Part shown: piece after piece, positions 32,723 to 56,111 of the stretch
How the letters are laid out: each line of letters opens with the position of its first letter
How positions within the stretch are numbered: position 1 is the first letter of the stretch
From: Pseudoscleropodium purum
Taxonomy: Eukaryota; Streptophyta; Bryopsida; Hypnales; Brachytheciaceae
Assembly (NCBI GenBank): GCA_963969395.1
Contig: OZ017795.1
Coordinates: 42,575,063 to 42,639,062, forward strand
Direction of reading: 5' to 3'
Length of the DNA stretch: 64,000 nucleotides
Notes under the pieces: model-generated
What the model saw: the letters and a program-made list of their open reading frames with translations, nothing else
Told to the model about the DNA's origin: nothing
The model's database searches: none
Translations under genes and position numbers: made by a program

Positions 32723-33170
32723 TAGTACCCTGTGATAATATTTCAGCATATTTAAAATAGTGTATGTGAACGCGAGGAAACGAGCTTTTTTGTGTCCACT
32801 TCGGTTCCGAGTTCCGAGCCCTTCTCCATTCGGCGACGCCCTAATCCTCTCGGCCTGCAGTTTTTGTAGTGCCAGAAACAGATACAGAGATAGGAACAGA
32901 ATCTATGTTGCCTTCCTTGGTCGATCTGGCTTGATAGAGTTGGCTAATCTGAAGATTGGACAAGTGTTCGGTGGGTTTTAATTATCGATCGCCCGTGGAA
33001 TGGCAGTCTTCACTTTGGGTACCAAATTGCGACGCGATTTCGATGAATGCAACGAAGCTACGATTATTGCTCAGCAGTTTCTCAGACCATGAATTTCATG
33101 TGTTCTAATAGATTAATTCCCTCTCTAGAATTTGGTGTTCCCGAACGTGATACACAAATAAATCTCTCTC
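32723..33170 (+). other. Promoter-proximal and 5' leader region of the pseudouridine synthase gene
   Basis: Base composition becomes gene-like from about 32.77 kb. I cannot locate a TATA box or transcription start with confidence. Small upstream frames (for example 33047-33241 in another frame) could act as upstream ORFs in the leader, but nothing shows that they are used. Confidence 0.35.
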
Positions 33171-35155
33171 ATGTATCGTGCGGCATGGCTGGCGCGATCC
33201 ATCACGTTTTCATCATCCCAATCGAAGCGGCGAATTCATGAAGCGCTGGGATTGGCCTTTACACCGTTGCTGACTAGAATGAATTCTTCCATGGTGGCGC
33301 AAGCGATGGTTGCTGCAGACGGCGAAAACGAACTGGAAGTGGATTACCCGGTGCCCATGTCACCGTTTGCAGGCGAGCTGTCGAAGGACGTGGAACTTCA
33401 ACGGGCTTTAGTGGCGGAGGCTGCAATGAAATCGGGACCGGCAATCGGGAGGGAAAATGTGCTATTTGAGGATGACTGGCTGATGATTGTGAACAAGCCT
33501 CGGGGACTATATTGCGAGCATGTATTTGCAACCGTGCCATCCCTGTCCAGCTCAAGCGGTATGTTCCTTAAGCTTACCGTCCATTATACGTTGTGCTTTC
33601 TGAACACTCGGTGCACATGCAAGTGTCTTTAAAGATCGCACTTTTTTCTTCCAGGCTGGTAATCTACCTCTGTCCTTGTTGAAAGTTTTGGGGTTTAGGG
33701 TTCAGGCCTTAAAACCCTGAACCCATGACCGTGCTTCTATTTGCGTCACGATCAGGCATTCCTGTAGTTCATGACCTCTAGTTCAGAATGGACATGAAAG
33801 ATTCTGGATCGTGAGTAGTTCCCCGTATCAGAACAAGTTAATGTGTTTAGCAGGTTTGAGTAGATTTGAGTAGGTCATCTGGGGCCTTTTTTTCAATTCA
33901 ATTGTATTTGTTTACTGATGGTCATGTGCAACGTTTTTCTCTGATTTCTGGTGGTATGAAAGTTGACCCATTGGAATTATCTTTTCGCAAGATTGATCAT
34001 ATTGTGAAAATTATAATTTTGGACTGGTTTCACATTTGAATGTATGACAAAGAATTCTTGGTCTTCTCAATAGTGATGTCTATTCACGTAACTTATGCTA
34101 TTGTTGTTATGAGGCAGTGATTGTGAAAGTGAGATGAATAGCCATTGTTTATGAAATAAGGGAGGATCGTTTCAAGCATACTTTTCCTCAATTGCCAGCA
34201 TCAAGTATCATTCACTCCCGGGCTTTGTGAAACGTTAGAATAGCTTTGTATGTTGGTGAAAACCGCTATTGAGTGGAAAGTGACGGATTTGAGCAGAAGA
34301 GTGGCACTCATGATAGAGATAGTGAGCAGAATAAAGTCATTGTTCATGAAACAATGGGAACTTCTCGGCGTAGGAGTTAGGGGTTGGCCCTTCAAGCGCA
34401 TTTCTCTTCTCATTTCAGATTTCCAGGGCTTCAATGCTCTTACGCAAGTGGTGCTCTGAATTTATGCAGGTGAAACCCAGCCACATTTCCACATGGCGAA
34501 TCGCCTGGATCGTGACACAAGTGGAATCATGGTCATCACCAAATGCAGAGAAGCCGCTGCGAAGCTCACTCGCGCTTTCACAAACCGGGAGGTTCAGAAG
34601 ACGTATCTGGCTCAATGTGCCAGAGCTGGACAGCCCATGTGGAGAAAGATAAGGATTGAATCTGGCCATGGCAGGTCCAGGTACGGAGCGTGGCGTGTCT
34701 ATGCCAAACACGACATCGGCAGGCGTCTTCCTGGAGGGTCGGCCGTTCGAGACATGGTGACCACAGTACAAATTCTTGCAGACGCAGCTTTGGTAAAGCA
34801 AGCGCCCGGTGAACCTGAATTTCTAGAGGTGGTTGCCGGATGCGAATTTGAGGTTCGACCTGTTGCAGAAGAGAGCGATGGGGAGGAAGTGACCGTGGTG
34901 CGTGCGTTTCCAGAAACTGGAAGAACACATCAGATCCGGTTGCACTGTCAATATTTAGGCCTGCCTCTGTGCGGGGATGTCAAGTATGGAGGCCCTCTAA
35001 TCTGGCAGGGTCTTGCCTATGACTCCCACGCCTTGCACGCCGAGAGTCTCACCTTCACGCATCCCATCACCAATGAGCCTCTCAATGTAGTCGCTCCTTG
35101 TCCTAATTGGGCAGCGCAATTGGGAGTGAAGCCCTTTGAGTTCAGAAGCTCATAA
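33171..35155 (+). CDS. RluA-family RNA pseudouridine synthase (plant RNA pseudouridine synthase 1 type)
   Basis: The family isomerises specific uridines in structured RNA to pseudouridine. Two exons, 33171-33558 and 34470-35155, join in frame (phase 1, GTATGT donor, TTTATGCAG acceptor) to give 357 residues. About residues 102-112 hold the VNKPRG motif. The catalytic motif is at about 139-148, with NRLDRDTSG in place of the usual HRLDxxTSG; the active-site Asp of RLD (about residue 143) is present. The C-terminal half has the ETGRTHQIRLH motif and LCGDVKYGG. The first 35 residues are rich in Arg, Ser and Ala with almost no acidic residues, suggesting organelle import, but this is a guess and later in-frame Met codons exist near residues 36 and 41. 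The YPVPMSPF block and a following acidic/helical leader are shared with the plant RNA pseudouridine synthase 1 group. The target RNA cannot be told from sequence. Confidence 0.9.
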
Positions 35156-35620: not shown

Positions 35621-38600
35621 TTAGAGTTCAAGCATCTGCTCACCGTCTCCCTCTTGTGACCCCTCTGGCAGGTCACTGCCCAAATAAAATCCTAACCTAA
35701 ACGCCGTGAGCATAGCCTGTCCAGCCTCTGGAAAACTTGGATGCTTCGCTATAACTTCCTCCACGGATTCTGGACTCACATCTCTGGCAAACCTGCTTGA
35801 TTGCGAATCTCCATAGCAGTGTCTGGAAGCCTGATAGAGAAGCGAATCCTGAATCACTTGCATAATATGATCATCTGTCCATCCCTCCTCGTCCGCTGTC
35901 CGCTTCATGCCCAACCAGTCATCTTGGTCAACTGCTCGGAGCCACGCTTCCTCCAGCAAGCTGTGATTTCCACTACAAAATTTGGAACCGGCACTTGTGA
36001 AGACCTGAAACGCACACAATACCAGCTCCCTGGAGACGCTGTTCAAACAAGCCTCCACTAATTGAACTGGTGATACAACGTCCTCCCCAAGCACCCCTAA
36101 TTTTGTCGCCACTTCCTGCAATCCCACAGATGACGTAGACCATGGATTTACCACATTATGAGATATTGTTACTTCATTTTGACAATAAAGACTAAACATT
36201 CACGTGAGGACAAAGAACCAGATATTAAGTGATACTGCTGAAAAGACAAGAATCACCAATATTGAGTAGGAAAATAAGATCAAATTGCTGAAGTGATCAG
36301 GCTCACCTGTACTGCAAGGATGTCCACATCTGCTTCCAAACGACGCACTTCTTCCTCAAATCCCACTGCCCTTCCTGCACGAGAACCACAAATCATAGCA
36401 GAGGATCAACTCTACAACACTAACCCTTATCCCTACTAGAGTATCACTACAAAATGTAGTACCGGGAAAAGAAATGCTAACATTAAATTCACCATAAAAG
36501 TGATATTCAAATACTCTCGACTAACTGGACTGACGTTATTTTGAGAGTACAAAAATAAGTAAGAAACAGCACGTCTCTACAAAACCAATCGTGTTTATCA
36601 TCTGTAAATACATGACAGGCCAAAAAACTCAGTCAATCATTACCTGCTAGTGCCGACATCTTTGCAAGATGCAAGAGCCTCCGTCGGTGGTTAATATTAG
36701 GAGGTGCAGACTTTTGGGAGAAGGCCAAGGTATGTAAAGTGCCAGCTGCTCTAGAGAATCTGTGCAGGAATAGCTGATGCAACCACAAAAGCAGAGGGTG
36801 TTGCTCGAGGTACGCTGCAACCTCCTCGCCAAATTCTTCCCCAAAGCGAAGGAGGCGAGCATACTGGCCTTGTTGATAGCAGTGATCAAACACAAAACGA
36901 CTAAAGCGACCCTCTTTAAGCCCCATGCTTTCTTTCTGTTCAACACAAACTGAAATAATTAGTAGGAGCACAGCTCTCTGAACTTGACACGCGTATAAAT
37001 CTTTGAAGCTACCTAATAGAAGAGGTAATAAAAAACTAGAACAAAACAGCACCAACACCAACACAAATTTGGACAGGCAGATGCACATTCAGGTGAATGG
37101 AGCAAGCTAGGATACTAACACACCATGAGGGTACGCAAGCGTTTATGGTCATCAAGGTCGATGCACATTTGAAGGAGGCTGGCAAAAGCCGCATGGCGTC
37201 GAGCCAGAGCTATAAGTGGTGTATACAACTTCTGCAAGATACTTAATCTTTGTTGCTCAGCATTTTCGCCTCTTCCAGCTTTCTACAAGTGGCGGCAAAC
37301 CACGATAACGGTCAGTAAAACTGAATAGCTTTCATTCCAAACGAGATACAATGATAAGCCACAGAAGGCCCAACCTGAAAGAGCACAATAATTTTGATTA
37401 ATTTGTGGGCATGTCACAACCTGCGTTGCAACTTGGAAAGCATGTTGTTGAAGCGTACTAAGGAGGAGGTCCCTCCGAGTCCAATACTCCATCTGCAATC
37501 CCCTATACTCTTCTTCCCGCTCGACTTTGGCAGTGATAGCACCAGCGTAGCCTTCCAATAGAAAATCTGCCGTCTCTTCTACCTGTCGCATCACCTCTGC
37601 AGTCAACGTTGGTTCACTCATGTCTCCTTCCACCTTGAGCTCCAGGAGCATGGTCGCTATCTTCCACAACCCAGAACGAATATTCTGTTTGCAGTACCAA
37701 GGGGTGATGCCCTCTGGTGAAGGATACCATGCATGATGTGCATGCCGATACGCTATAGCAACTTGTAGTATAGAGCTACAGGCATGAGCAAGCTCGCATG
37801 CACGCTCAATCTGGACTCTAACAGCCTGGTCACGTTGCACTAGGAAAGCAGCATGCTGTTGAATGCACACAAAAAAATCTTCTAGCCCAGACACTCTGGT
37901 GTAGAAGACCTCCACTTTGTCACGGTCCATAAGAACCACATTATTCCTTCGCGCCTTGTCTCCTACAAGTTGCACCAAGTCCCATAAGGCTCCACTCATG
38001 TCTCCAGCATTATTATACTGCGAGAGCATTGTAGGAGATGTAGCCTTTGGCTGTGCACGAGTATTGTTCAACTCTCTTAGGGCTACCATGCTTGCCAGCT
38101 TCTCCCCATGCTCCAGGATTTCATTAATGGACATTCCTGAAGAGCAACAATCATCAGTCTTAATATTGGCGCAAAAAGGGTTATTATGAAAGTGAAACTG
38201 AAAATTCTATCAAAGCCAGTGAAGTTTGCGCCAACTCGACTAGTAGAAACCAGTCCCAGCTAAAAGAAGTAACCATTCCATGATTTGTACACTAGGTTCA
38301 GTCACTCAGGTCCCTCCATTGAAGGTGACAATCAATAACAGCAACAACGGTATGCAACTAGAACGTACTCTGATTGTTCTGAAGCTCTTCGTGGCACTTC
38401 GAGACTGCAAGAAAATTCAGATACTGCTGGTGTCTTTTCTGTTTCTCAGCAAGTTGCGAAGACACAGTCGCAATAATAGCCAACCCAGATCCACCTCCAG
38501 AGGCCCAATGCTTTGCAAATGTATCAACTAGAGCACGACTGGTCCGTGCAAAGGCATTCTTATCACCGTCCCTTTCAAAGACTCCCGCACGCTGCAGTTT

Positions 38601-40988
38601 CTCAAATGCTTCATGCGCTTGTCCAGAGCTCAGGAACTGCTGAAATAATCGTCCCACTATAGCTTCTGTTTCTTCATCCTGCGAAGACCGTGAGACTACA
38701 GCACGGTCCATGTTTTTGGCTTCAGATGGGCATCCAACATAATCAAAAAATATATTAGCAATGACATTCTTGAATGACATGTTGACAAATATTCATGTTC
38801 GTGTCATGGCTAAGCCAACAGCTAGAGTTTCGAATAGCAGACTTAGAGTGGAAGTGTTATTGTCTTAAAATAAAACATTGAACGGACAAGCTTTAGTGCA
38901 ATGCAGATAGCAGATAGTAGTACCAAAGATCACGGAAAAATGTAGAACACGGCATCATACCAGCCTCTGAGTTTGATCGCTGCAACGACAAGGCTTCACC
39001 AGCTACATCTTGGGAACGTTCCTCATTCTCAATCTCGTGCTTCCCACTTTCATGATGTGAAAGAGTCCTCTCGGAGGGCTCCACCTTTCCAGTCAAAACC
39101 ACAGAAGCTGGAATGGCCCAAACACCAGCCTTCTCAGTAAGAACTGACCAAGCGCCTCCATCATCAGCAGGAACTACAGACGCATCCAAGACTTTCCCGG
39201 CTCCACAAGCTATTTCAAACTTGTACAACTGGACGGTACCACTTTGACCTACATGAGCGACCGTGGCTGTCCCGTCTTCAGCAAGAATGACAACAGATCT
39301 TGCTGGCTTCCCTCCTGTCCGCAAACGCATTGAGTATAAGAACGATTCATCTTCTACTTGAGCCTTGGGTAGAATGACTACTGGAGGGGCTTTGCGTCTC
39401 ACCTCCCCCTTACCCGAATAACTAAAATAATGTAAAGCATACTGCAAATAAGTCGAGCTGGTTGCACTGCCATTGCTAAAACACGCCACCAACATAATGA
39501 GTTCGTTCCCTGAATCATCGACCTGTAAGTCGAGCAGCCACACTTGTTTCTGTCCCGAAAAATCCGCCATAACATCCTCGTTATTTGAAATTTCAAAAGT
39601 CCAAGACTTGGATACCTTCCCTCGTGGGATGAGCTCGACTTCCCAGCATTCAATACTTTGAGCTGTCAACAGCAACATCTCACGAGACGCTCTCTGAGGC
39701 GGTGACCGCCAAACAATTCTCCTCACACTACTGGTATCTGCCACGAAGATGCTGCACCCAACTTCGGCTACGCTCACATCACGAAGTATCTTCTCACGCA
39801 ATATACCCCCAGCACTACAATCGAATCTCCAGAGCTCTCCATCAGATCGGCTCACTATGGTAACACATATGCCTATCACGTCTGTTGCTGATGCTTGGAT
39901 AGAAGTCACTCCTGCGGTACCTGGACTCGTCGCTGTCCAGCTGCCAGACACCCTGCGGCTGCTTCGCCTATCATCATGAAAAGAAGACACCATTGCCGTG
40001 TCGTCGGATTCTACGCTGGTAATTGCTGCTTTATTCCCATTGGTGAATGCATCAGGCCAGAAAAGCAGCACTAGAGATCTGCTGGAGCACATAATCACAC
40101 TCACCGCATTACAACCTTGGAAGTGGGCTCCTAAGTTCTCATCCGTCCAATGTGGCACTAGACTAACAAGCCACGTCTCTTCGGTGCCCAGCATTCCCAA
40201 GACATGCTGTGGCATGTTCAAGGCACAGCTCTGGCTACTGCGAAGGTGATTCCAAACATATAGCTGGTTTCCTTGCAGAACCCAGGACAGACCACTTCTT
40301 CCATCCATGCCACCTTGTAATGCAGCTGCTTCTGTAGGAGAGATCACCAATTGGACCATAAGCAAGACATACAAAGGCCTGCATAAACTCGACACTTAAC
40401 AGAGCCTTTCAGCAATATGAAAATGAAAATGTTGTAAGTAAACACTAGATTTTTGTACCACCTGTAGCGAGCGTCGCATCGCTATGAGAAACGCGCAGCT
40501 GCTGAGGTAAGTCAGAAACAAACACTGGCTGATTGCCATTAGCAGCAGCGCCTTTCTCGGTATTTCGAACAGCAACACTTGCCCTGCAAGCATGCAAAAA
40601 TACCTATAAAGATCATTTCCTCCAGAAAACACTGCACGACCTGATTGAAATAAATCTCTTGTCACGATAGGCATTGAACACTATCTGGATCGCCCCCGAT
40701 CCGATGGATTCAATTAGTTCCTACACCGGCAGAAAACTCGAACACGAAGCCATCCAAATGCACGCGCAGCAAAACAGTGTGACCCATCCCTGCAATCCAA
40801 TACCTGGCGACATTGGGAGCAGGGGCAGGCCACGGCGACAACGAGGACCGCGACGGAGCAACCGAGGACGGCACCAGCGAAGTAGGCGTCCCGCCCACCT
40901 CGGCTCCGCCATAGCCTTCCCGCTCCCTCTCCCTTTCCCTCTCGCGCACTCGACTGGCCAGCTTCCTGGGACGCCCCGGAGTGAACAT
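35621..40988 (-). CDS. NUP133: Nucleoporin NUP133
   Basis: A scaffold nucleoporin of the Y-shaped NUP107-160 complex, acting at the nuclear pore. Nine exons in coding order: 40804-40988, 40462-40583, 38961-40331, 38369-38719, 37421-38136, 37124-37282, 36644-36935, 36307-36374, 35621-36115. Lengths keep frame and give 1252 residues; Arabidopsis NUP133 is slightly longer. The start is supported by an MFxPG opening shared with the plant family, followed by an Arg/Glu low-complexity stretch. Residues about 62-560 form the beta-propeller part (GGMDGRSGLSWV, AGQKQVWLLDLQVD, MRLRTGGKPA, AWSVLTEKAGVWAIP). The remainder is the helical stack, with QDEETEA, FAKHW, HEELQ, HGEKLASM, ALWDLVQ, YWTRRDLL, LLRFGEEF and DQDDWLGMKRTADEEGW. 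Exon 4 could also begin 26 codons or fewer downstream at a second in-phase AG, so that boundary is uncertain. No breaks were found. Confidence 0.95.
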
Positions 40989-42017: not shown

Positions 42018-43060
42018 TGACTAGAAGAAAAACATGTCTGCCACAATCGACTACAATGCAACTATGTGTCCTATACAATTGTCTGGCAATTGTAGCTTTC
42101 TATATTTTCACCAAATTTGACGTGAACAAAGTTATACATTATTGTAGTTAGAAAGTAGTTGCAAAGTGAAGTTTAGGATTACAGGGATGTATGAGAAGAA
42201 TTGATGTGAAATATTATACATCCAATATTCATTACAATTGTCGATGTGGACAACTTTTTGTTCTGTAGAATCTAGTGAGTCAAACTATAGTTGCATAGAA
42301 TCTAAATTCAACTCAAAAGCAACTAGAATGCAACTAGAAAGAAACTAGACTGCAATTCAAAAACAACTCAAAAGCAACTAGACTACAACTAGAGTTAAAC
42401 TAGAAAACAATTAAAATTGTCCCACATCAATTGTCAAGAATACCATTAGGTTAAACATATAAGAACTGTAAGTTATAGTATTCTATCATAATGGATTCTA
42501 ATTATGGAATTCTAATATTTCTACCTTTCGTAGACTTCTGTAATTTGTAGATTTCTACAATTTGTAGATTTTTGCAGTCTATAGAAATCATTGAATTTTT
42601 AAAGTCTAGGAAATTTTAGAACTTGTGGAAATTGTAAAGTTTTGTAAATTGATGAAATCTATTTAATATCAATATTCAGATTCCATAATCTAAAAAAGAA
42701 GCTAGATTTGAAATTTTAATATCTACAAATCCTTGAGATTAAAACTTTAAAATCTACAAATCATAGACAAGTTGTAAATGAGTTGCAAACAAGTTGCAAA
42801 TCAATTGTAGACAAGTTGCACATGAGTTGCAAATAAGTTGCACTTGAGTAAGTTCCACATCCGCAACCACGTTAGAAGAATTCATCGATGAACTTCCACA
42901 TAGAATATTGAATGCCATAAAACTTGCAACTACTTTGCAACTAGTGTGACTTGTCCAATGCAACTACAATCTCCAAATTATCACCTAGTTGTAAACGCCT
43001 CTTGCAACTACAAAACTAGTTGCAAATTGTAGTTACAAAAACCCTTGTTTTCTTGTAGTG
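42018..43060. mobile_element. Non-autonomous CACTA-like DNA transposon
   Basis: The right end reads '...GTTTTCTTGTAGTG' (43047-43060), the reverse complement of the CACTACAAGAAAAC terminus typical of CACTA (En/Spm) elements. A decayed matching left end, 'GACTAGAAGAAAAACA', starts at 42019. Inside are two oppositely oriented arrays with an 11-bp period. About 42311-42411 has nine units around 'aGCAACTAga', and 42766-42853 has eight units around 'aaGTTGCAaat'. Further scattered TGCAACT/AGTTGCA motifs lie towards the right end. Subterminal arrays like this are the transposase-binding sites of CACTA elements. There is no transposase coding sequence, so it would need help to move. A 3-bp target duplication is not clear. 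Confidence 0.6.
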
Positions 43061-46000
43061 CATGAGATTGTTGTAATTTTTTGCACATCCATTGTCTAAT
43101 TTTCTCCAATTTAATATAGTTTTATTTTTTTTACCTCATCTTGAGTCTATCCTCAACAATCCCACATCTACTAAAGATTCTATTTATATTTTTTGCCCTT
43201 ACCAAAATACACACGGTTTTAAAAATTAAAGTGAAAGGCACATAAATTGACTATAGACTTCTAAAAAAATAATAAGATGATGGTCACTTTGGCCTTTTGA
43301 AAATTTAAACATACTCTAAATTCATGATTTTTTTGAACTTTTAATCATTATTCTCTTCATGCAAAACTTTATTTGATGTAATTCTAGTAAGTATTACCAA
43401 ACATAAAGCATCTTAATTTTATTTCAATCTCAAAGTAGTAAGTGCAAAATTGAATTCTTAAAACTTGATTAAATAGATCCATTTGATTTGTATTGTCTAC
43501 AAAAAAAAATTTGATTAATCATATTTTTTAAATGAGGTTAGAAAGGATAATTATTGTTTTGGAGAAATGAGAGAAAAAATAATATGAAGAGTTAATTTTA
43601 GAAATTAAATTTTCAATAATATAAAACTTTCAATATTTCTTGTTTACTCAAATACTATAGATATTAGAATTGGTGATTCTCAATTTTGTATCAACCTTAT
43701 TAATTATTAGGTGTTTATTTCATCATAGACAACTTTTTTTTTTATATATAAAAGTGGTATGCATTATAAATTAATATGAAAAGATGTTAATTTTTTATGC
43801 ATTTTCAATTGATTTTCTAATATTTATTTAACAAGTATATTTTGTAGGATAAGTTAAAAAATCTTTATAAAAAAAACTCTACTTTTAATAAGATTTGAAA
43901 AAAATGGTTTTAAAGTTTAAACATTATGAATTATGATCATACAATTAGTCCAAATTAATTATCTCCAAATACGTACACTCAAAGCTCACATGCTTGCATT
44001 TTCATACTCACATGTACTAGCATTGTTGTAGAGTCTTCTAGTACTTATTATTGAGCCTCTTTAACATTTCATGGTCCTTCTCCAAGTTTTTATATTTAGA
44101 CAATGTAAATAATGGATGCTTATAACTAATTGTATATTAATCCATAAACAACACCAAGGATGTATTCTGGCCAATGAATAACAAAAAATTTCTTCATGGA
44201 GGATAGAAGTACAACTATTTATCCTCCAAATTTTGTGTGGAAAAGGAAGGTCTTTTACAATAGTTTGATTTCTAATGAGTGCCTTTGCATTTTTTTAGGC
44301 CAACAATTCAAATAATACCAAAACAAATGGTTTCCAAAGTGACCAATGATCTCATCCTTTAATGGTTAAGGAAGTTAGCCAAAAATGATCAAATTTCTAG
44401 ATGAATTGGTGTACTCTTTGTTTTGGTACTTTCTTTAAAAGTCTATTAGAACCAAAAAAAAAGGAACCTTCGGGTAGGTCATTAAGCTTTGAAAAGCCAA
44501 TCTATTAATAATGGGAGCTTAGAAAATGTGTCAAATTCTTGTTGTTAGCCTATATGAATTTCCTAAAATGAAGTCAAATTTTGTTACTACAATTATATTC
44601 AAAACATGGATGTAGAATATACTAATCCCATTTATAAAAAAATTTCACAAAAATCTCAAATAAACTATATAAAGTTGCAAGTACCAGAATATTTTTTCTC
44701 CAATGATATTATTCCATATTCTAGCATATCAACTAAGTGAGAGTAGGGGAATAAAATCCCTACTTCCTTTAAGGTACAAATTAATTCTATTCGCCCCCCC
44801 TTGCCTACTATAAAATGGTCCTTTGGTATCTTGACATTTTCTCTAATGCATTCATTGGACAATTGTTAATCTTCAACATCTTTACCAAATTATGCACAAT
44901 GACTTTGGAATGTTAGTTCATAATATAATAACTCTTTCAACTCCAAACATATTAGAGAGGACTGGAGATGAAAGTATTACAAGAATCTTTTGAACATGGT
45001 GGAATTATGAAGTTTGTTGAATGCCAATTGTCATGTTATTTGATGATGGATAACTGGTAGGCTCTATAGGGCTTCGTAAGAATTGGTTAAAGACATGGTA
45101 CAATCAAAATAGCCATGTATTGACTATTTGGGGCTAAACTAGTGTTTTGAGATTGTTTGAGGTGTGAGCAGAGCTGTTTTGGGGCGCCTTTGGGGTGGTT
45201 CTAACCCTAGGCCGCCCCTTTGCTCATTCATTCTCTTCAAGTCTTGTATGTGTTGTTGTTTTTGAGTTGAAAGGAGTTGGAGCACATAATGTAATGAAGG
45301 TTGGTTATTAAACCAATCTTTACTAGCGTTATTCCTTAATTTGTGTGATTTTGTAAGACTAATCCAATTGAGACAAAGTAGAAGCAACCTTGAGTGCTTA
45401 GGAAGCTTATTACTTGAAGAAAATAGTGTATGTGCTGATGTTAGAGAACTAGAATATTTGAAGAGGTTTGATTTGTTGTATTTGTGTTGGAGACATTGAT
45501 AGTGACGTGTGGAAGTGTTGACAAATTCAAATTTTGGAGTTGAAGGTGTTGATTTGGAGTTGGAGGGTCTTCGAGAGCATGGAGGGTTGTTGAAAAGAAC
45601 TTGGAGGCAGTCCTTGACTGTAAGATTTATGTCCAACTCATTTCGTGCAATTCTGATAAAAAATGAGAAAGATACGGGAATTTGAGTGAAATAGTCAAAA
45701 CCTATATATGTGCTATTCCAAATATGCAAAAGTGCTGATTTGGTGTTTGGAGGACATTTGGGTGATTATTTCGTGTTAGAAAGATGATTTATAGTTCAAC
45801 CTATTCTAAAATTCCAAAATTGTTAAAAATTGCCAAAAATTGAGAAAGTTATGGCATTTTGAAATTTTGTGTTGGGGTTTATTTTTGGCCGTGTTTTTGG
45901 TGGTTGTTGTTGATGTTTTGCAAGCTTTGATAGCTTAGCAAAACAGGAGAGACAAAGCTATATGGAACTCAATCTAAGTCTAAGTCTTGAAAATATAGCT

Positions 46001-46450
46001 ATATTTTGATAGTCTACATATAGTTCATTACTCATTATATGAGGGGCTGATTTTTAGTTTGGAGAGTATAGAAAGAGGCCATTTAGAAAGGTTTTGAAGG
46101 ATTCTAGTCAATTTCAAGTTCATTGCTTGAACTTGGGATGCCCTAGCCTATTTTGAATGCTTTAATTTCTACTTTGCGAACTACTCTTGTTGCGGATGAT
46201 GTAGGTCAAACCATTGCTTAGTCCCATTTCTTGTTGTGGTGATGAAATGGGAGTAATGACCCACATGGTCAAGATTTGCTATGTTTTTGCGGTGAAGTTG
46301 GATGTATGACCAACAGATTGTGAGTTTGAAATTTAAAAACTATTTTCACCAACAATATCTTGTGGTATTTTGTTGATTCTACCCATCTTGTATTCTGTGG
46401 CTTTTTATCTCTACCTTGCATCTTAAACTAATTTATAGCCGCAACAGAAT
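43061..46450. other. AT-rich spacer leading into the retroelement
   Basis: From 43.06 to about 45.1 kb this is AT-rich sequence without recognisable content. From about 45.1 kb the composition is less AT-rich and may be a remnant of the retroelement's 5' LTR and leader, including a GC-rich patch at 45175-45225. I found no matching copy downstream of the element, so no LTR can be claimed. The 196-codon minus-strand frame at 45139-45729 looks like a by-product. Confidence 0.4.
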
Positions 46451-46523
46451 AGGCCAAGAAGGAGCAGTTTGATAGTAGAGTAGAAGATTCAACAATTGAA
46501 GATTATTTATGATATAGACATAT

Positions 46524-48720
46524 ATGTGTGATTACAACATATTGGAGGAAGTTGATATTCCTAAGGCAGAGGGTGAAAAAGAGCTAATTTTGAAATTTGT
46601 AAGCATTGATCCATTCAAAAGTTGTGGGATCAGTGCCTTTGGCATCATAGAGGACAATGGAGTTGGATCTATGGTTTGTGACCACTATTTAGGGAAAGTT
46701 GAAGGTGTGGCCTTCAACAATTGGAAGACTAGATTTTGATCATAGCAACGGACTCAGACAATGCAACACTTTGTTTAATGATTGTTGGGCCTTTGAGAAA
46801 TTGCCCTTCTATCTTGAATTTGAGACATTGCAAGCTTATGATTCTTAATTTGAGGATCATACATTTGAGCTTGAAGAAATATAAGACTATTGGGCTCGAA
46901 GGGTAAAGTTAGTCACTGCATTGAAAGATAGAGCTACATTTCCGGTAGTTCAAGCTTCAAAAATTGGTGACAAAGATGAAGATAAAGGTGAGGAAGCTAC
47001 ATCAACCCCCTCATTCCCTAATGCAATATGAGTTGTAAGGCTGAAATCCAAATCCACTACTAGTAGCACCAATGGAACTACATCTACATTCATTTCTCGA
47101 TTGTCTCAAGCATCAACTGAGGCAATAGCTACAATCAACCCTCCTTCTCAGTTTGACCTTCTCTAGTTATTTTTCAAGTATTTAGAAATGGAGTTTGGTG
47201 GCATTCGTTGAGATTGCATGTGCCACATCCAAAATTTCAAGAAAGAAACTAGAGACACTCCTTGCATCATGTATGCAAGGCTTTCTAAGTTTGCTCGTGA
47301 AAGTGAAGATGCCTTTACAAAGCGCTAGTTGGTAGAGTTTTACATAAGACAAGAAGATTCATGATATAGTACATTCTCACATGTTGCTAGTATATAAAGA
47401 TCAAGCTACTTTAGCTTAAGCTTTTGCTATTGTGGAACAATTGGATTGGGGGCTATGTGTAGAAGAGGTTGAAAGATTGTCATCTATTATGACTTCTATA
47501 ATAAATCAATCCATAGCTATTGTTAGTGGTTCTAGCAAGAATTAAGGGACACCTAAAGCCTTTAAACAAGTTGTTATGGTAGTTGAAGTGGAAAGGACAA
47601 TTAATTCTCGTAAGCGATATTGGAACTGAAGATTGTTAGGCCACAAAAAGAAAGATTGTTCCATAGATACATCATTTGAAGGCAAGAGTGGTGTATGAGC
47701 ATCTACCAACAAAAATTATACTACCACAACAAACAAAGGACAACAAAAGAAGATACAAAGTGAAGCCACACCTCCAAAGTGCACTTATGCACTTAGTAGC
47801 CAAGTTGGTCATACATAGGACAAGTGTTAGGTGAAGAACCCATAGCTAAGGCTTCAATAATTTATTCTACAAGCTACTCAAGGAAGAAGTTCAAATTCTA
47901 AAGACAACAATTTTGAAGCACGTATGGGAAAGTTGCAAAATACTCTAGCATTGCTTGTTGCAGCAACAATAAAAATCACACAAACATCTTCTAGTTCAAA
48001 GCCTGGATTAGATAGGTTTGAGTATGATGCTCTTGGTGAAGTGGTTGCAATAGTGGCTATTAGGTTACAAACTAATTTTTTACTTGTTGCATTTGTGGTA
48101 GAAGAGAACTCAACGTCTCAACCACTCAATGTGGGCCTCATGTACGCTACCAAGGGTCTTTTAATAGCATTGGATAGTCAAGATCGCCTGTAACATTTGG
48201 CTTGGCGGATGTGGTGACTAGTCCAATACTTACAACAATTTTTAATAAAAAAGATTCATCTAAAAAAGGAGATATGGTAAAGAGTTTAGCTTTCAAGCTC
48301 TTAGAGATTTCATTGTTCTCGGGGGTCTAGTTACAAAGTGGAAACTTTGATGCGCTATCACATATCATATGGTAGGGAAGATAATGCAAGGTACGGTTTC
48401 AATGCCTGCCAATGTAACCATGAAGGAAATGAAAGAATATTTTTTGGGTGATGGTGAAGAAGGCACAAAGAAAGATGTTGCTAAGGTAACAACAGATGCC
48501 TTGCGATGTTGGAAAGGATGGCCAAAGGAGTCTCCTTCACAAGCAAAGTTTGATAGAAGCTTAAATTCAAGTGGAGAAGCTATTGGGAGTGATGTTGAGA
48601 TTTCAATGAGTTATTTGGCAATGGTACTAGCTCGGGCAACTTATGAGCGCTTGCAAATCAAGCCTGGAGTAGTGCGTTTGATCAATTTTGGTCATGTCTT
48701 TTCTATGGCTTGAGGTGATA
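46524..48720 (+). pseudogene. Retroelement gag and gag-protease linker, broken
   Basis: Around 47190-47340 the translation resembles gag-capsid sequence of this element type (MYARLSKFARES...). A CCHC zinc knuckle, C-x2-C-x4-H-x4-C, is recognisable at 47618-47659, but the first Cys codon is now TAT and the second is TGA. The His and final Cys remain. Open stretches survive at 46524-46739, 47924-48193 and 48369-48713 (114 codons, probably the gag-protease linker). Several frameshifts separate them. The N-terminal 71 codons match nothing I know. Confidence 0.6.
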
Positions 48721-48734
48721 CATCTCAAGTGTTT

Positions 48735-49045
48735 CTACAAAAGGTACTACTTGATATTGGTACTCAATTAGTAATGCTAAGAAAACTTCTAGCTCAAAGC
48801 TTGGGACTTTTTTCTAATGATTTGGACCCATGTCTTTTCACTATAGCAACACCACTTGGGGGCATAGAGCAACCTACATCCTACGGGATTGAATAAAGAG
48901 CCGCTACAACTTCAATTCAAGGTGGGTGTTGATGCATACATTCATATCTCTATAAGGTGTGTAGTTACAAGTGCTATTAGCTATGAAATTATATTGGAGC
49001 AACCAACTTTGTACCTGATTAGTTTTGGTCATGATTCTTGAACTG
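48735..49045 (+). pseudogene. Retroelement aspartic protease, broken
   Basis: The active-site region at 48744-48770 reads VLLDIGTQLVML. The catalytic Asp and Gly of the D-[ST]-G triad are kept, but the middle residue is Ile (48756-48758). The downstream part (near 48985-49015) has the 'YEIILEQPTLY' strand typical of retroelement proteases. Frameshifts split the two halves. It precedes the methyltransferase, with about 400 bp of linker between. Confidence 0.65.
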
Positions 49046-49389
49046 AGGAAGCATGGTTACAACTAGGGTGGTCGCAAGAAGATGGACAGAAGGAGGTGAT
49101 TCCAGTCATCTTTGGTATTTTTGCTGGTGTAGTTGAAGGTTTGGCAACAATGTATAGATGTGGTGTAGAATGGTTTGCAACTAGAGATTTGCTACTTGAG
49201 GGCAACATGTCTGCTATAGACTCACCTCCAAAGTTGGATTTGCAAACACAAAGCAAATTCAAACCGTTTGTAAGGCATTCCAAGGACCCCATACCACTAT
49301 ATATTTCACCAAAGGATTTGGTTGAAAAATGAAATAAGTTGGTAGAGAAAATAGAATAGCATCTTTGGCAGCCACAATCCACATTAACA

Positions 49390-50400
49390 CCTCTACAAAA
49401 ACTTGAGGATCTTCATAATGATCTTGAGGGCATAGTTCTTATAGAATAATTTGTTGGACTTGGTATTGGTTTAGCTACAATTTTAGAAGCAGGGTTGTCT
49501 ATTCGGAATTATATGTATGTAGACAACAACATTATTGGGCGCAAAGCTACAAAACATCATTTAGAGTAGCTAAGGATGCGATATCCAAAGCAATTGCCTA
49601 CAAGCGCTATTCAAGGTTGTATGTCTCAAGTTCCTTTAGACATTACCTTGATTGGAGAAAAGGATCTTCTAAAGTTGGACAAAATGGACCTTGTGATGGT
49701 TGGATGGTCTTGCCAAGGGAATTCTTGAGCTGGTTATCGCCAAGAACTCCAAGACCTACACTCAAATTTATTTTGGGAGCTCTTGCAGTTGTTGCATTGG
49801 TGGCAACATAGACAAGCTACAAGTGTTGTTTGTATCTTTGAAAATGTGCCTCTATTAGGAGATGCTGAAGCTTGGGTTCACAACAATGCAAAAGAAGTGT
49901 GTCAACATCTTGGAGAGCCAATTGTAGTAAATGTTGTAGCTCTTCGTTCTTATGCCCATCATTTCTGGTAGAAATGAACCAATTTGGCTCACATGCGAAG
50001 GATTTCAACAACATTATATTCTATCAACTGCCAAGAGAGAAGACATTTTGATGACATTTTAGAGGATTGGCAATTTGCCCAAGCAGTGGTGTAAGACGAT
50101 CAACTACCATTGGCTATATAGTCAACCGTATAGAATTGCCTCAAATGGCATTTCCTACTTTGATGAGCTATCCTCAGTCTTTTGTTTTTCACAATGGTGG
50201 ACCGGGTTTAGTGTTTGACAATACTTCTATGAGATTGGAAAAGATATGTGCTACTAAATAAGAGCATGCTATGGATTTTTCTACCAATACCACTTGTGGG
50301 CTTGGATTGACAGAGTCGTAGTGACGTCATTGCATTGGACAAGCCATAGACCTCATATCTATGGTTTGGTTCTTAGGGGTATGTTTGGCAGTTCAAAGGC
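49390..50400 (+). pseudogene. DNMT3-like cytosine-C5 DNA methyltransferase inside the retroelement, broken
   Basis: C5 methyltransferases move a methyl group from S-adenosylmethionine to cytosine. Motif I (FVGLGIG) is at 49450-49470, followed by a VDN acidic turn near 49525. Motif IV is at 49699-49725 and reads GWSCQGNS; the catalytic Cys (49711-49713) is kept and the usual Pro before it is Ser. Motif VI (FENV) is at 49837-49848. These three share one frame for about 590 bp, broken only by stops at 49447, 49567 and 49726. A motif VIII-like segment with an FW-x-N-L pattern lies around 49948-50000. After a shift near 50.12 kb the frame contains an NGGPG block (about 50191-50205) and a motif IX/X region, IGQAIDL at 50334-50354. 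The FWELLQLL segment before motif VI resembles the FFEF-HLL of DNMT3, favouring that subfamily. About 340 residues matches a bare catalytic domain. Confidence 0.82.
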
Positions 50401-50849
50401 ACAAGAAACTTGGCCTTGAAGGCCATCTAGAGGCAGATGCTTCAAGCTAGGGGGTAGACAATATTGTACGTCTAGTGTTGGAGAAGAAAGCTACTTCAGG
50501 TACCAAGGCATGGCATGATGGTCAAGAATTTTGGAGCCAAACACTAGAGAAAAGAAGAATCCAAAATAGTATTGAGTAGCTTGTAGAAGATGATTTACGA
50601 GGACAACGTATATTGGTACCATTGGCTCAAGAAATGGGAATGGAAGATGCCAAAGAAAAGTTCAAGAGGGTGTTTTTTACAAAAGAAAATCTATATCTTC
50701 TTGCATCACCTCATTCTATAGATGGTACTAATGTTGATATTAGTAGAAGTAATTTTGTTGAAATTGTAGAGGGTGATGATGCATCTATTGTCTTGAACAA
50801 GGACAATGGTGTAAGCTCTTCCAACTAGCAATCAAAAGATGTGCAAATA

Positions 50850-51830
50850 CCATCAAAGGGGACCCTAAAAGAGGAAGTGATCTTGCCAATTAACAAAGAT
50901 TGGAAGATGGACATAGGCATGGGACTCACTAGTGTAGAGGCACGAAAGGTACGAGCATTTATACGCTCATATAGAACTTGCTTTGCTTTTAAACTCATTG
51001 ACTTGGAAGGTTATAAGGGCAAGCTTGTGAGAATTCAACTAAAGGATGATCATCCAATGTTTAGATGCTTGTTTAGGCTCAGCCTTTTAGAAAGAGACTA
51101 GGTGAAATTGAGGTGCAAAGAACTTTTGAACGCTAGACTAGTAGAGCTTTCAAATGGAGAGTATGCATGTGCTACAGTGATACCAGTAAAGAAAGATGTT
51201 CTTGGAAACTGGACAAAGAAATGAATGTGTGGAGATTATTGTCATGTTAACAAGAAAACAAAGTCTGATCAATATCCTATGCCAATACCTGAAGAGTTAT
51301 TTGATGCAATTAAAAGGGCAAGAGTCTTTAGTACCATCAACTACCATTGGGACTAGAAGATAGGATAAAGACAACATTTTGGAGAGTAGATGATGATAGA
51401 AGAGGTATGCTTTTCTATTGGAAGTTCTTACCTTTCGGCTTGAAGAATGCTCCGTCAAAGTTTCAACTTGATTGTTATTGATCAAGTCTTGAAGGGGTTG
51501 CCATTTGCTTGATGTTACATAGATGATGTGATTATCTTTAGTGATACACTAGAGGAGCATGTTTAACACTTGCAACAAGTTTTTGAGAGGTTGCAAACTT
51601 GGGGTCTTTGTCTACATCATAGAAAGTGTAAATTCTTCTATGATCAATTGTCCTACTTGGAACATATGATTACACTAGGAGGTTTGGAAGTACAAAAGGC
51701 AAAGGTGGAAGCTTTCAGAAGGATTCCAATTCTTAAAGATGTATCAAGGTTGAGAGCTTTTATAGAACTAGCAAACTACTATCAACAATTTGTTTGTGGA
51801 TTTAGTCTCTTGGCCAAACCTTTGACTTGA
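50850..51830 (+). pseudogene. Retroelement reverse transcriptase, broken
   Basis: The catalytic box YIDD is intact at 51516-51527, just after a stop at 51510. The conserved KKTKSDQYPMP segment lies near 51255-51290. The first catalytic Asp, expected after 'FSTI', is replaced by Asn (51339-51341). Downstream, GLCLHHRKCKFF and FIELANYYQQFV (to about 51830) are the usual thumb/connection motifs of Ty3/gypsy RT. Stops and shifts at several points make it inactive. Confidence 0.88.
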
Positions 51831-51849
51831 TTAACTCAAATTGATCAAG

Positions 51850-52330
51850 AATGGATGTGGAGTCCTAATCAAGAAAAGGCATTTGAGGCTTTGAAAGGAG
51901 CACTTTGTTCAGTACCAGTGTTGAGGAGGCTCAATGCTCGACGACCTTTCCAACTCCACACAGATTGGAGTATGTTGGAGATTGGAGTTGAGCTGACTCA
52001 AAAAGATGATGATGGCAAGGAATATGTCATTGCATATGCTTTATGAAGCGATAATGATGCAAAGGCAAAGTTTTCATCTTACAAGGGGGAGTGTTTAGTA
52101 ATAGTATAGGTAGTTGCTCATTTTTGTCCATGTCTTTATGGCCAGAGCTTTACATTTGTGACCGATCATCAACCTTTAAAATGATTGATGGAGTCTTATA
52201 AACTCATTAGAAAACTTATTAGATGGACTTTACTACTACAGGAGTAAGATTTTGAAGTAGTCCACAAGACAGGGTTGCAAAATTTGGATGCTAATGGCTT
52301 AAGCATTAAAACAAGTCCTTTAGAGGAGGA
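51850..52330 (+). pseudogene. Retroelement RNase H domain, broken
   Basis: The start is marked by WSPNQEKAFEALKGAL at about 51858. FQLHTDWS (about 51947-51970) supplies the first acidic residue, a YKGECL segment (near 52080) the Glu, and VTDHQPLK (near 52158) the next Asp. The last acidic position, in 'LQNLDANGLS' near 52280, is Asn in place of the usual Asp. In-frame stops occur after 'IAYAL' and elsewhere. Confidence 0.8.
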
Positions 52331-52639
52331 TTTGATTGGTGCCCGATGACATGGCACATGTGATTAAGAAGCAGTGCCAAGGTGGCATGCTTTATCTTAT
52401 TTGGATAGAAGGAAGATCCAGTCAAGAGTTAGAGGAAACTCTATTGGATGTTGTTGATGAGGACTTGAATGAAAGAAGGTCTAAAAATACCACTAACATG
52501 TGGAAAAACCAAGGAATTCTACATCGTCTTCAGCATGGGGAGTTTTTGTCTAATACCACATCTCAAGATAGAGATTTGATAGTCCATTGATTGGCTAGAT
52601 TTCATTGGGAAGGTGGCTTTATATTTCGTAGGTGGATGG

Positions 52640-53775
52640 ACAAAATACAGAGGGTTGATCCTAGGTCCAACCAACATCTTCAATTGATATGTCAAGTTCA
52701 TGAAGAGTTGGGTCATTTTGGAGTACGCCGTATATATTCTATGTTATGTAGTTTATATTGGTAGATGGGCATGAGACAAGAGATATCAACCTATGTGGGG
52801 AGGTGTGAAGTTTGCGATTGGGTTAGATCAAGCTTCAATACTCTAATTCCTCAAATACGGCCTTTACCAATCACGGGCTTGGACTATAGGTGGAATCTTG
52901 ACTTCGCTGGGTCATTGACAACTACATCACGAGGTGAAAAATACATACTTGTGATGGTAGAGCATTTTGGCAAGTGGATTGAGTTGGTGGCACTACCACA
53001 AAATTCCTCGAAGTTAGCAACAACAACATTCCTTGATTGTATGTTGGCTAGATTTGGAGCTCCAACTAAATTGTTGACAAACCAAAGAAAAGAGTTTCTT
53101 GAGGCATTTGAGGAGCTTTGCACTAAAGCTCTAATTGATCACTGTACAACATCAAGGAACCACCTAGAGGCTGATGGATTAGTAGAGAGGGTGGTTCAAA
53201 TAGTTAAGCATGGTATGTACAAGTGTAGATTGTTGGCAAGTAATCATCAAGATTAGGATTTAAAATTTTCATGGATAGCAATGGACTATCACTTCAGTCG
53301 ACAAACATCTCTTGCATTTTATAGCTCTTATTAATCATTGTATAGTAGAAAGTCAATGCTACTATTGGCATTGAGAGAGAAATTAGATCATGTTGTAGAC
53401 TTGGATGACCCAAGAGTTTGAATAGAGGTGTTACAAGATCATGTTGAGTATTTTCAAAGGGCCATGCCAATGGCTATGGAGAATTTGGCGATAGTGCAAC
53501 ATAGAGATATGCTTAGGTATGTGCGCATTAGAAATGGGGCTTATAGGCCTCAACTTCAATGATTCGAGGTTGGAAATTACGTGTATTTGCAACGTGAGGC
53601 ACTAATAACCTTGGATGTTCGAGCAAGGTGGACTATTTTGAGGGTGAAGGTCATTTTGCCTAATGGAGTTCTTCTTTTGGAAGGAAAAGATGGACAAGAG
53701 TGCAAAGACAACACAAAAAGTTGTACTCCTCGTCATTTGCCAATTAAAAGAATTGTGGATCCAGAGTTAGCAGTA
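52640..53775 (+). pseudogene. Retroelement integrase, broken
   Basis: The zinc-binding HHCC module is complete and in frame: His at 52699 and 52714, Cys at 52804 and 52813. The catalytic core has Asp (LDF, 52900-52902) and Glu (LVER, 53185-53187), but the second Asp is Asn (53080-53082) with about 34 residues before the Glu. An SH3-like GPY/F-type region, EVGNYVYLQRE onward, runs from about 53567 to 53730 and leads straight into the PHD finger. A stop at 52762 interrupts the zinc module and more follow after 53256. Confidence 0.85.
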
Positions 53776-53784
53776 GTTCCACTT

Positions 53785-53937
53785 AAATATAAATGCTTTG
53801 TGTGTGGAGAGAACAAGGGTGTTGCAACTATGTTATTGTGTAATTTGTGTCAATGAGGTTGGCACATGGCATGTCTTTGACCGCCATTGATTGCTCTTTC
53901 TACTAGAGGGTGGACTTGTCTTCATTGTAGAAAATGA
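53785..53937 (+). pseudogene. PHD finger downstream of integrase
   Basis: All eight zinc ligands of a C4-H-C3 PHD finger are present in one frame: Cys at 53794, 53803, 53839, 53848, His at 53863, Cys at 53872, 53917, 53926, spaced x2-x11-x2-x4-x2-x14-x2. The Trp two residues before the penultimate Cys and the GWH around the His are also typical. Two TGA stops (53854, 53878) interrupt it. PHD fingers read the histone H3 tail, often by K4 methylation state. Many Ty3/gypsy elements carry a chromodomain at this position, so a targeting role is a reasonable inference. Confidence 0.82.
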
Positions 53938-54019
53938 TTAGCTGGTACTACTTCATTAGGTGATTGTAGATGATTTTTCTTATTGACAGGAGATATAGTC
54001 ATTTATAACATTTTATGTT

Positions 54020-54345
54020 AGAGTATAGGCAGTGGTTCTTGATATTGAAGCTTGGATGAAGATTTTGTCAAATCCAACTATAACAGTAGAAGTAATTTAG
54101 GACAGGGTTCGATTGCACCTAGCTTATCCCTTCATTTATGATTGATTTAAGACTACAAATGGATGGAGGCCTATCAACTATCTTCTTCAACATGTTGATT
54201 GTGTAGTGAGTATAGTAGAGGTTATTCATTGAACTTTTATTGCTAGCTGAATTGTGAGGGTGCTTTATTCATCTAGGGAGGTAATTAGATGGTTGGTCAT
54301 TCATGCCTTGTTGTAGTGTGGATTTGTTTTGAAGCATGGGTAAGT
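54020..54345 (+). pseudogene. Unrecognised C-terminal segment of the retroelement polyprotein
   Basis: After the PHD finger a single frame continues to look protein-like for about 320 bp despite several stops. It contains IEAWMKILSNPT near 54044, DRVRLHLAYPFIYD near 54103-54144, and SSREVIRWLVIHALL near 54270-54315. The mix of charged and aliphatic residues, with Trp, suggests a helical domain. I do not recognise the family. Confidence 0.4.
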
Positions 54346-56111
54346 GTTTTAGTGCTTGTAGTTTATGAAATCTCCTATAAACGATATAGAGTGACACGAC
54401 ACAATGAAGAATGTAATCACATAGAATGGATCTTCATGTACATTGCTAACTCCTAACAAAAGAAAGGCACAAGCCACCATTGAAATTGGGAAAAAATAGA
54501 CAAGTAAGTTAGTGAATAATGGAGTGTACACATGAAAGAACAAGAAATGTCAACATACATAGCTATAGCTACTACCAATGGCAATGACAATGAAATAAAT
54601 AAATTTTGGATTCATAAAAGTTGCACTTGACACTATTAGTGTCTTGAGAATAATATGGACATACAAGGATTGATAATTGTAATATAAACTATATGTAAGA
54701 CACACTATTGCTTTGTGAATACAAAATCTTTTCTTTCTATTATACAAAGAATTGCAAGTGCTTCACACTGATTGGTGCACAGAAGAAGCATTACTTACAA
54801 AAGTGTATCTAATGAAAGTTTGCTACAACTTGGATCATCCTTCCAAAGTCTTGAAAATTGATCTAACTATTACACTTGAAACTACCATTAGAATAAATTT
54901 GAACCTTACAAAAGGCCATTAAGGATGCATTTTTTTGACAGCTCGCAATGCAAGTACAGAAAAAGAAAAAGAAATTTTTTTGAAAAAAAAACATTTAAAA
55001 ATATTAAAATCTGATGTGGCACAAGTAGTGCCACATCAACTACTTTCATTAAAAAATTAAAAAATAATAATAAATGATTTACATTCTTCTCTAATTGCAC
55101 CTAGGGGGGGTTTAAGAAGGTTTCAAACTTGCAACCTTCTAGAGGGCTGAAATTTTTTGTAATGAGTATACAATTGGAAATACAATATTGTTTGTAGCAC
55201 TCTTCTTTCTGAAAGATTGTATACCACAACAACCGTCATTTCACCCTAATTATCCCTCTTAAAGTAGCACCAAATGCTAAAGAACCTTTATGCAATAGAA
55301 CACAATGGCACTTACTCAAACAATCTTATTTACTTCTTTCCAAATATTCTACAATGACAATCTATCATAGCTCTAAATAAACTTCCTTACCTTCTAGAAA
55401 AAAGTGTATTTTTCAAATCTAACTTTGCCAAATAATTTCTCCTCCCCAAACAAAAATTAGTGACCTCACTATCCAATTCATGACATATCAAATTGCTAAG
55501 TTCTTTGTAGTTTAAAAAACTTGACACCATCCTCATTATCCAATACGGTAGGACTATAGAAAGTTTGTAAGCAAGCGAGGTTTTAAACAGTGCAATCCTT
55601 ATTTAGGAGTGACACATTCCTCAAAATGTCTATTACTCTCATAACTCTCATTGATGTCATTGATGAAGTAGGTAGGCTTAAAGGGACAGTTCTTCATGGA
55701 CCTCCTACATTCCCCATGTTTCAGTCATTCACACCTGTCACGCAACTAATGTCAAAGTCATCTTTCTAGGACTCCAGAGCAGACAGACTAACGAGCTCAA
55801 AATATTCAAGAGTGCACAGATAGAACATATCGAGATAAAATTTACTCATCCAATATCACAATCTGTAGGAAACGTCCATTCCAAATTCTGAATAGAACCT
55901 CGTCTACTCAGAGGACTTCTATTTGCTCTGAAGTCTTCCAATGAACACCACAAGCAATTCTGTTGAGCGTATTTACTTCCAAAAATTTGCCTATCAAACA
56001 GATTGAGTGCCCTCAAAGGTCCTGGCCTGGCTGGTTGCTTTTCAGTCTTGGCACTTCGTTCAACAGAATGTTCGAGGTTGACCACTTCAATAGCAACAGT
56101 TTCTTGATTCA
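54346..56111. other. Spacer downstream of the retroelement
   Basis: AT-rich sequence in which a 3' LTR would be expected, but I see no segment repeated from the 45-46.5 kb region. The last 300 bp before the FHA gene stop (from about 55.8 kb) have a gene-like composition and probably hold that gene's 3' UTR. The minus-strand frame 55846-56112 lies there and ends at the gene's stop codon region. Confidence 0.45.

Follow-up and report, generated by a model that had tools for sequence, protein, structure and literature searches.

What is a DNA methyltransferase doing in the pol region of a plant retrotransposon? The question is raised by a stretch of 64,000 nucleotides from the moss Pseudoscleropodium purum (contig OZ017795.1, positions 42,575,063 to 42,639,062; hereafter the window), in which an earlier note had placed a DNMT3-like cytosine (C5) methyltransferase at 49390-50400, between the protease and the reverse transcriptase (RT) of a Ty3/gypsy element. 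That placement of the domain stands, but the element as a whole proves larger: it is a single Ty3/gypsy-type insertion of 9,373 bp spanning 45029-54401 (left end TGTC, right end GACA), flanked on both sides by CAAT, with its ends placed using copies from the same genome as guides. Its parts all lie on one strand in the order gag, protease, DNMT3-like methyltransferase, in-frame UAG, RT, ribonuclease H (RNase H), integrase and PHD finger. The element combines this architecture, brought in by a single insertion, with many copies, selective constraint on the methyltransferase and a conserved stop before the RT. We lean, by a modest degree, toward the reading that this now dead 9.4-kb element used its methyltransferase to methylate its own new DNA copies around integration.

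The C5-methyltransferase assignment of the earlier note is upheld by profile matches. When translated in a single frame, stops being written as X, the window stretch matches the Pfam DNA_methylase profile (PF00145) with E 5.6e-7 and 29.7 bits against a cut-off of 22, and a six-frame search of the moss's own genome with this profile recovers window positions 49636-49872 at 29.0 bits, again above the cut-off. Alignment to the relative P0018, with 69% identity over 48877-50118, places motif I at about 49438, IV at about 49702, VIII at about 49948 and X at about 50337, close to the positions first given. Motifs I, IV and VI share one frame, as had been claimed, and motif VIII lies in it as well (48877-50118); the X portion is in another frame (50118-50825), which indicates a frameshift near 50118. 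The motif order is thus I, IV, VI, VIII, X, and the rearranged order of DRM was not found. Profile comparison with PDB sequences puts the domain nearest DNMT3A/B, with DNMT2 further off (0.014) and with DNMT1, MET1 and CMT absent among the best 60 of 98 PDB sequences; its predicted fold is likewise nearest DNMT3A/B. A PDB search with a single sequence was not significant (best E 0.24), and the NCBIfam dcm model matched under its cut-off (26.7 versus 100.65 bits). The domain shares motif order, nearest profile and fold with DNMT3A and DNMT3B, but its motif IV is mostly PCQGHS where these have PCNDLS. In the methyltransferase tree one DNMT3A fragment, the only such host-enzyme row, joined a long branch. 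A domain that acts on RNA, or that serves assembly or targeting merely by binding nucleic acid and does not methylate DNA, would sit well with the variable motif IV of the algal relatives, and an RNA role has been discussed for SymbioLINE-Dnmt (available text of PMC5890265); the catalytic motifs preserved in the aligned relatives' rows, together with a profile nearest DNMT3A/B and not DNMT2, make this very unlikely.

Relatives were sought among about 5.8 billion proteins, yielding 7 for the window stretch, 48 for the protease-methyltransferase region of a biocrust contig, L001, and 330 (120 of them listed) for the integrase-PHD region of that contig. Liverwort names are attached to 11 of the 48 (ten Marchantia polymorpha and one Calypogeia fissa), several of them on multi-megabase contigs. 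Open-frame relatives are found in metagenomes, on L001 and on the chromosomes of both liverworts, and these chromosomal relatives bear out the expectation that the association of retroelements with methyltransferases extends to land plants. L001, 9,285 nt long, sits in the bin of a cyanobacterial genome in a species collection, where it is probably a eukaryotic stray. The same 127 bases occur at both ends, as expected of a circular assembly, and the contig apparently carries an entire plant or algal element. It has two long open reading frames (ORFs) in the same frame with one stop between them: ORF1 specifies Gag-protease-methyltransferase (1,162 codons, open at the contig edge) and ORF2 RT-RNase H-integrase-PHD (1,047 codons). 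The L001 protease match is slightly under the Pfam cut-off (20.5 versus 24.3 bits), and Pfam scans of L001 detect neither a PWWP nor an ADD domain, a further difference from DNMT3A and DNMT3B. Scans of IMG/VR with P0003, P0001 and A5 found no relative, while A4 found six loci with ordinary methyltransferases that served as an outgroup only, and alignment A1 was too variable throughout to scan with; no Klebsormidium sequence is named among the matches listed in the protein searches.

The window copy itself is dead, with stops, frameshifts and C-to-T decay at CG and CHG. Alignment to relatives counts 9 stops in 48877-50118 and 5 in 50118-50825; the RT-RNase H part has 15 and the integrase-PHD part 8. 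With so many stops in its coding parts the insertion is old. Among the window pieces, Pfam cut-offs are exceeded only for PF00145 and the integrase profile rve (43.2 bits versus 32.6); the RT piece falls short (17.7 versus 29.6 bits) and the protease and PHD pieces have no Pfam match, so that the remaining parts were assigned through relatives. An Rfam scan of the window gave no match. Relative to three copies of the nearest family, C-to-T changes in the window reach 0.39-0.41 at CG and 0.36-0.38 at CHG versus 0.19 at CHH, the reverse rates being 0.18-0.19, 0.18-0.26 and 0.10, respectively. This excess fits long-lasting methylation at CG and CHG. Copies do become methylated, then, as they would if the methyltransferase were a brake that marks chromosomal copies, which host maintenance enzymes keep quiet, limiting harm to the host; a benefit to the host is among the options raised by de Mendoza et al. 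(available text of PMC5890265). However, host enzymes methylate transposons at CG and CHG regardless, and hence the decay does not reveal the writer of the mark.

Taken alone, the window copy would be compatible with the chance insertion of a methyltransferase gene into one element copy. The genome at large (313,191,705 bases in 52 contigs) makes this hardly credible, and chance nesting was rejected: many loci have the same order, one target-site duplication encloses the whole element, and relatives have open frames. There are 72 PF00145 matches genome-wide, host genes among them. The genome also has 29 NAC-domain matches; NAC genes mark land plants and their close kin, and their presence fits a land-plant host. 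The protease-methyltransferase query P0021 gave at least 67 matches, corresponding to at least 61 loci on 11 contigs, a lower bound with 62 of 237 candidates scored; the RT-to-PHD query gave at least 46 matches and at least 44 loci (44 of 1,581 candidates scored). Of these 44 best-scored RT-to-PHD loci, 40 have a methyltransferase match at most 6 kb upstream in the same orientation and 4 have none there. The claim of the earlier note that the ancestor of this copy carried its own methyltransferase is supported on four counts: a significant profile match, a predicted fold like that of DNMT3A/B, the shared order and the open frames of relatives. Neither of the outcomes that the note had named as refuting it, a missing profile match or a lack of other copies, was observed. 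Two loci on contig C47 (G000:C47:8952933-8955077 and 9090851-9092995), 138 kb apart, have identical scores in three genome searches and are probably a segmental duplication.

For closer comparison, 20 stretches of 10 kb were read, drawn from the best 23 PF00145 rows and hence representing the stronger, likely younger copies. The element is present in 19 of them (L028 is without it), and these copies form family 1 (n=6, near P0020/P0057 and the window) and family 2 (n=13, near L001). The proximity of family 2 to a biocrust contig may hint at a moss host. The three family 2 copies whose upstream flank was read have a 5' end consisting of a segment R (361-364 nt) and a 3' end of the form A'-R-A' (A' about 107 nt), with identities of 96.4-97.3% between R pairs and 95.3-99.1% between A' pairs, and target-site duplications of CAAC (L031), GATA (L023) and GTAC/GTGC (L029). 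Among the 19 copies, the 3' end has the A'-R-A' form in 8 of the 13 of family 2 and in 2 of the 6 of family 1; a single 3' A' occurs in 1 of 13 and 4 of 6, respectively, and A'-R in one family 2 copy, while 3' terminal segments were not found in 3 of the 13 family 2 copies. The single-A' copies L019, L020, L022, L033 and L035 end without R-A'. The window copy has R ... A' only and hence no terminal direct repeat; a search within the window found no plain pair of long terminal repeats (LTRs), and no repeat pair is seen from the window alone. The Ty3/gypsy order of protease, RT, RNase H and DDE integrase is found in L001 directly and in the window through relatives. As a plain identical LTR pair is replaced by split repeats (R ... 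A'-R-A' in the three copies, R ... A' in the window), we call the element gypsy-type and not a standard LTR element. Two other classes were considered and rejected: a DIRS retrotransposon, as the window and L001 have a DDE integrase (PF00665) in place of a tyrosine recombinase, and a chromovirus, as L001 ORF2 has a PHD finger (PF00628) and no chromodomain match at E 0.01.

A stop stands at the same place between methyltransferase and RT in all 19 copies read, being TAG in 18 and TAA in one (L032), and is directly followed by CAAYCA in every copy. L001 and the window both read TAG CAATCA, and in L001 the frame is kept across the stop. The other stops in the ORFs of these copies are scattered, the most widely shared occurring in 6 of 12 copies. 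CARYYA follows 21 of the 2,537 TAG triplets in the 19 stretches, and 18 of these cases are at this boundary. Several metagenome proteins stop at the matching place (P0007 and P0018-P0023), and Marchantia models such as P0029 and P0036 terminate after the methyltransferase. UAG followed by CARYYA is the type I readthrough signal of plant viruses, and the element shares with tobamoviruses and others the arrangement of UAG-CARYYA between two coding parts in one frame (PMC5382211, in its available part); it differs in that its putative readthrough stop separates Gag-protease-methyltransferase from RT-integrase. Some distant relatives lack this stop; where it is kept, Gag-protease-methyltransferase would be the main product.

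The ratio of nonsynonymous to synonymous substitution rates (dN/dS) between L001 and the 13 family 2 copies is 0.10 for the methyltransferase, 0.08 for RT, 0.06 for RNase H, 0.05 for integrase and 0.08 for protease; with fewer copies it is 0.08 for the PHD finger (11 copies) and 0.12 for gag (12 copies). By this measure the methyltransferase has apparently been preserved to much the same degree as the core enzymes, though the 13 pairs share one lineage, the copies are decayed and the L001 comparison alone supports constraint. For family 1 versus the window the values are 0.42 (methyltransferase), 0.46 (RT) and 0.34 (integrase), as for a dying copy. This bears on the brake idea as well: competing copies would be expected to lose a domain that restrains them, yet its constraint equals that of the RT, and we consider a brake rather unlikely.

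The PHD finger is detected in L001 by PF00628 with E 4.3e-10, and the solved chains nearest to it by sequence are the PHD fingers of CHD4, PHF12, KMT2D, UHRF1 and KDM5, several of which read histone H3 tails. Other relatives have the methyltransferase between RNase H and integrase, as in P0045 (RT 232-370, RNase H 460-564, methylase 813-896, integrase 1263-1354, PHD 1570-1614). In an RT-to-PHD tree of 45 rows, from which 4 of 49 were dropped as too short (P0033, P0090, P0126, P0171), 24 rows labelled with this second position split from the 21 others at 100/99. That label is the default for rows without another; a motif IV is seen in 21 of the 24, the exceptions being P0058, P0099 and P0133, and 15 of the 21 others begin near the RT, with the upstream part outside the sequence. 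No branch of the methyltransferase tree sets either arrangement apart from the other (3 changes each), so that one move and two captures are both possible. Hosts named among the listed integrase-PHD relatives include Haematococcus, Volvox and Tetrabaena. What is added here for such algal relatives is the second position of the domain. P0045, P0046, P0050 and P0051 have a further conserved region (LDPWAGNPAVS ... NDPW) past the PHD finger, which looks like another S-adenosylmethionine-dependent methyltransferase; a Pfam scan of P0045 named nothing there.

DNMT-bearing retrotransposons have been described in dinoflagellates and Klebsormidium (de Mendoza et al. 2018, PMC5890265), and the streptophyte and dinoflagellate cases were restated in 2025, with LTR Copia and DIRS elements named (PMC12344493); these and the following comparisons draw on the available parts of the papers. 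The closest is KnitGypsy-Dnmt3 of the charophyte Klebsormidium nitens (PMC5890265). To judge by its published description and not its sequence, this Gypsy element likewise encodes a Dnmt3-type domain within its Pol ORF, combines Gypsy domains with DIRS-like A'-R-A' repeats (the present elements do so with a DDE integrase) and shows constraint on the domain (Ka/Ks <0.2 in KnitGypsy-Dnmt3). It differs from the present elements in that these belong to land plants, have a PHD finger, unmentioned in that text, and carry the conserved UAG-CAAYCA before the RT. SymbioDIRS-Dnmt3 and SymbioLINE-Dnmt of Symbiodinium (PMC5890265) are also retrotransposons with a DNMT, but of the DIRS type with a tyrosine recombinase or long interspersed (LINE) elements, whereas ours has a DDE integrase and a gypsy RT. 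A methylase within a retrotransposon is also a feature of the DAM- and DCM-encoding Ty3/Gypsy and DIRS elements that a 2019 paper (PMC6338049) cites for algae and other groups; methylase-bearing gypsy elements in green algae are already stated there and charophytes are named, whereas such transposons are given as absent from land plants such as tracheophytes, in contrast to those reported here. In the open-licence literature we found neither a land-plant case nor a PHD finger reported for DNMT-carrying elements; as far as searched, the land-plant hosts, the PHD finger, the conserved stop and the second position in algal relatives are new.

How might such an element use its enzyme? Ribosomes would mostly terminate at the UAG, giving plentiful Gag-protease-methyltransferase, with occasional readthrough adding the RT-RNase H-integrase-PHD extension at a low level. 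The methyltransferase would be packed with Gag and meet the complementary DNA (cDNA) in the particle or pre-integration complex, where de novo methylation before or at integration would let the new copy arrive carrying the host's silent mark, and the PHD finger of the integrase may read the histone H3 tail and bias the landing site. A Gag-side position would also put the enzyme in the particle if the mark served instead to shield cDNA from a host system attacking unmethylated foreign DNA, without setting chromatin state. We know of no such plant system. Protection has been proposed for the Symbiodinium elements, but other elements of the same genomes do without a methyltransferase, as argued in the same source (available text of PMC5890265), and we deem it quite unlikely here.

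Several observations weigh against self-methylation around integration. SCQ replaces the PCQ of most relatives in the window and P0003, and motif IV is ECQ/ECN in 7 of 23 rows (P0094, P0100, P0111, P0113, P0125, P0131, P0163), with the cysteine kept and the proline not. P0042, P0065, P0151 and P0159 have the methyltransferase before the RT in a single ORF without the boundary stop, and the Marchantia models P0032, P0033 and P0037 continue into the RT, perhaps by predicted splicing, these sequences being gene models that may be spliced. The dN/dS within families (0.66-1.19 in family 1, 0.38-0.77 in family 2) resembles that of dying copies. Finally, the KnitGypsy-Dnmt3 enzyme was inactive in yeast, a result its authors call inconclusive (available text of PMC5890265). 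It is likely that some land-plant retrotransposons bring their own DNA-methylating enzyme. More speculatively, and as a possibility that falls well short of an even chance, a bryophyte lineage may combine a chromatin writer (DNMT3-like) and reader (PHD) with their dosage governed by leakiness of the UAG: plentiful Gag-methyltransferase particles would pre-methylate the cDNA, scarce PHD-integrase would target matching chromatin and copies would be born silent. On this reading the domain would have occupied two positions in the green lineage, upstream of the RT in bryophytes and, in the algae, between RNase H and integrase. Bryophytes may have a so far uncounted source of de novo methylation. 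Marchantia, whose chromosomes carry relatives, is a genetic model, and the present genome has at least 61 loci, so that the purpose of an element-borne DNA methyltransferase becomes addressable by existing land-plant genetics and methylomes.

Features of the retroelement copy in the window (window coordinates)
Feature	Position	Strand	Basis
Left target-site duplication CAAT	45025..45028	.	Comparison with own-genome copies
5' terminal segment R, begins TGTC	45029..45418	+	78.6% identity to segment R of own-genome copy L034
gag remains, several frames	46509..48366	+	tblastn with P0018 residues 1-619, 58.9-68.2% identity
Protease remains, LLDIGTQ in place of LLDTGAQ near 48750	48714..49030	+	tblastn with P0018; P0006
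DNMT3-like C5-methyltransferase (by profile and predicted fold); X past frameshift near 50118	49432..50400	+	PF00145, relatives
Boundary stop TAG CAATCA, methyltransferase/RT junction	50826..50834	+	Comparison with own-genome copies, L001
RT and RNase H remains	50841..52403	+	tblastn with P0057 residues 6-527, 69%
Integrase; piece without interruption 52765-53253	52393..53790	+	rve E 5e-11; P0057
PHD finger remains, C-terminal end of integrase part	53790..53934	+	tblastn with P0057 to residue 1039; PF00628 in L001
3' terminal segment A', finishing GACA	54289..54401	+	76.1% identity to segment A' of L034
Right target-site duplication CAAT	54402..54405	.	Comparison with own-genome copies

Elsewhere in the window, a long ORF at 33162-35152 (+) contains RLDRDTSGIM, which we take to be as in RluD-type pseudouridine synthases, and a series of open frames occupies 36636-40395 (-); both are likely host genes. 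Two neighbouring arrays with an 11-nt period lie at 42288-42419 and 42748-42842.
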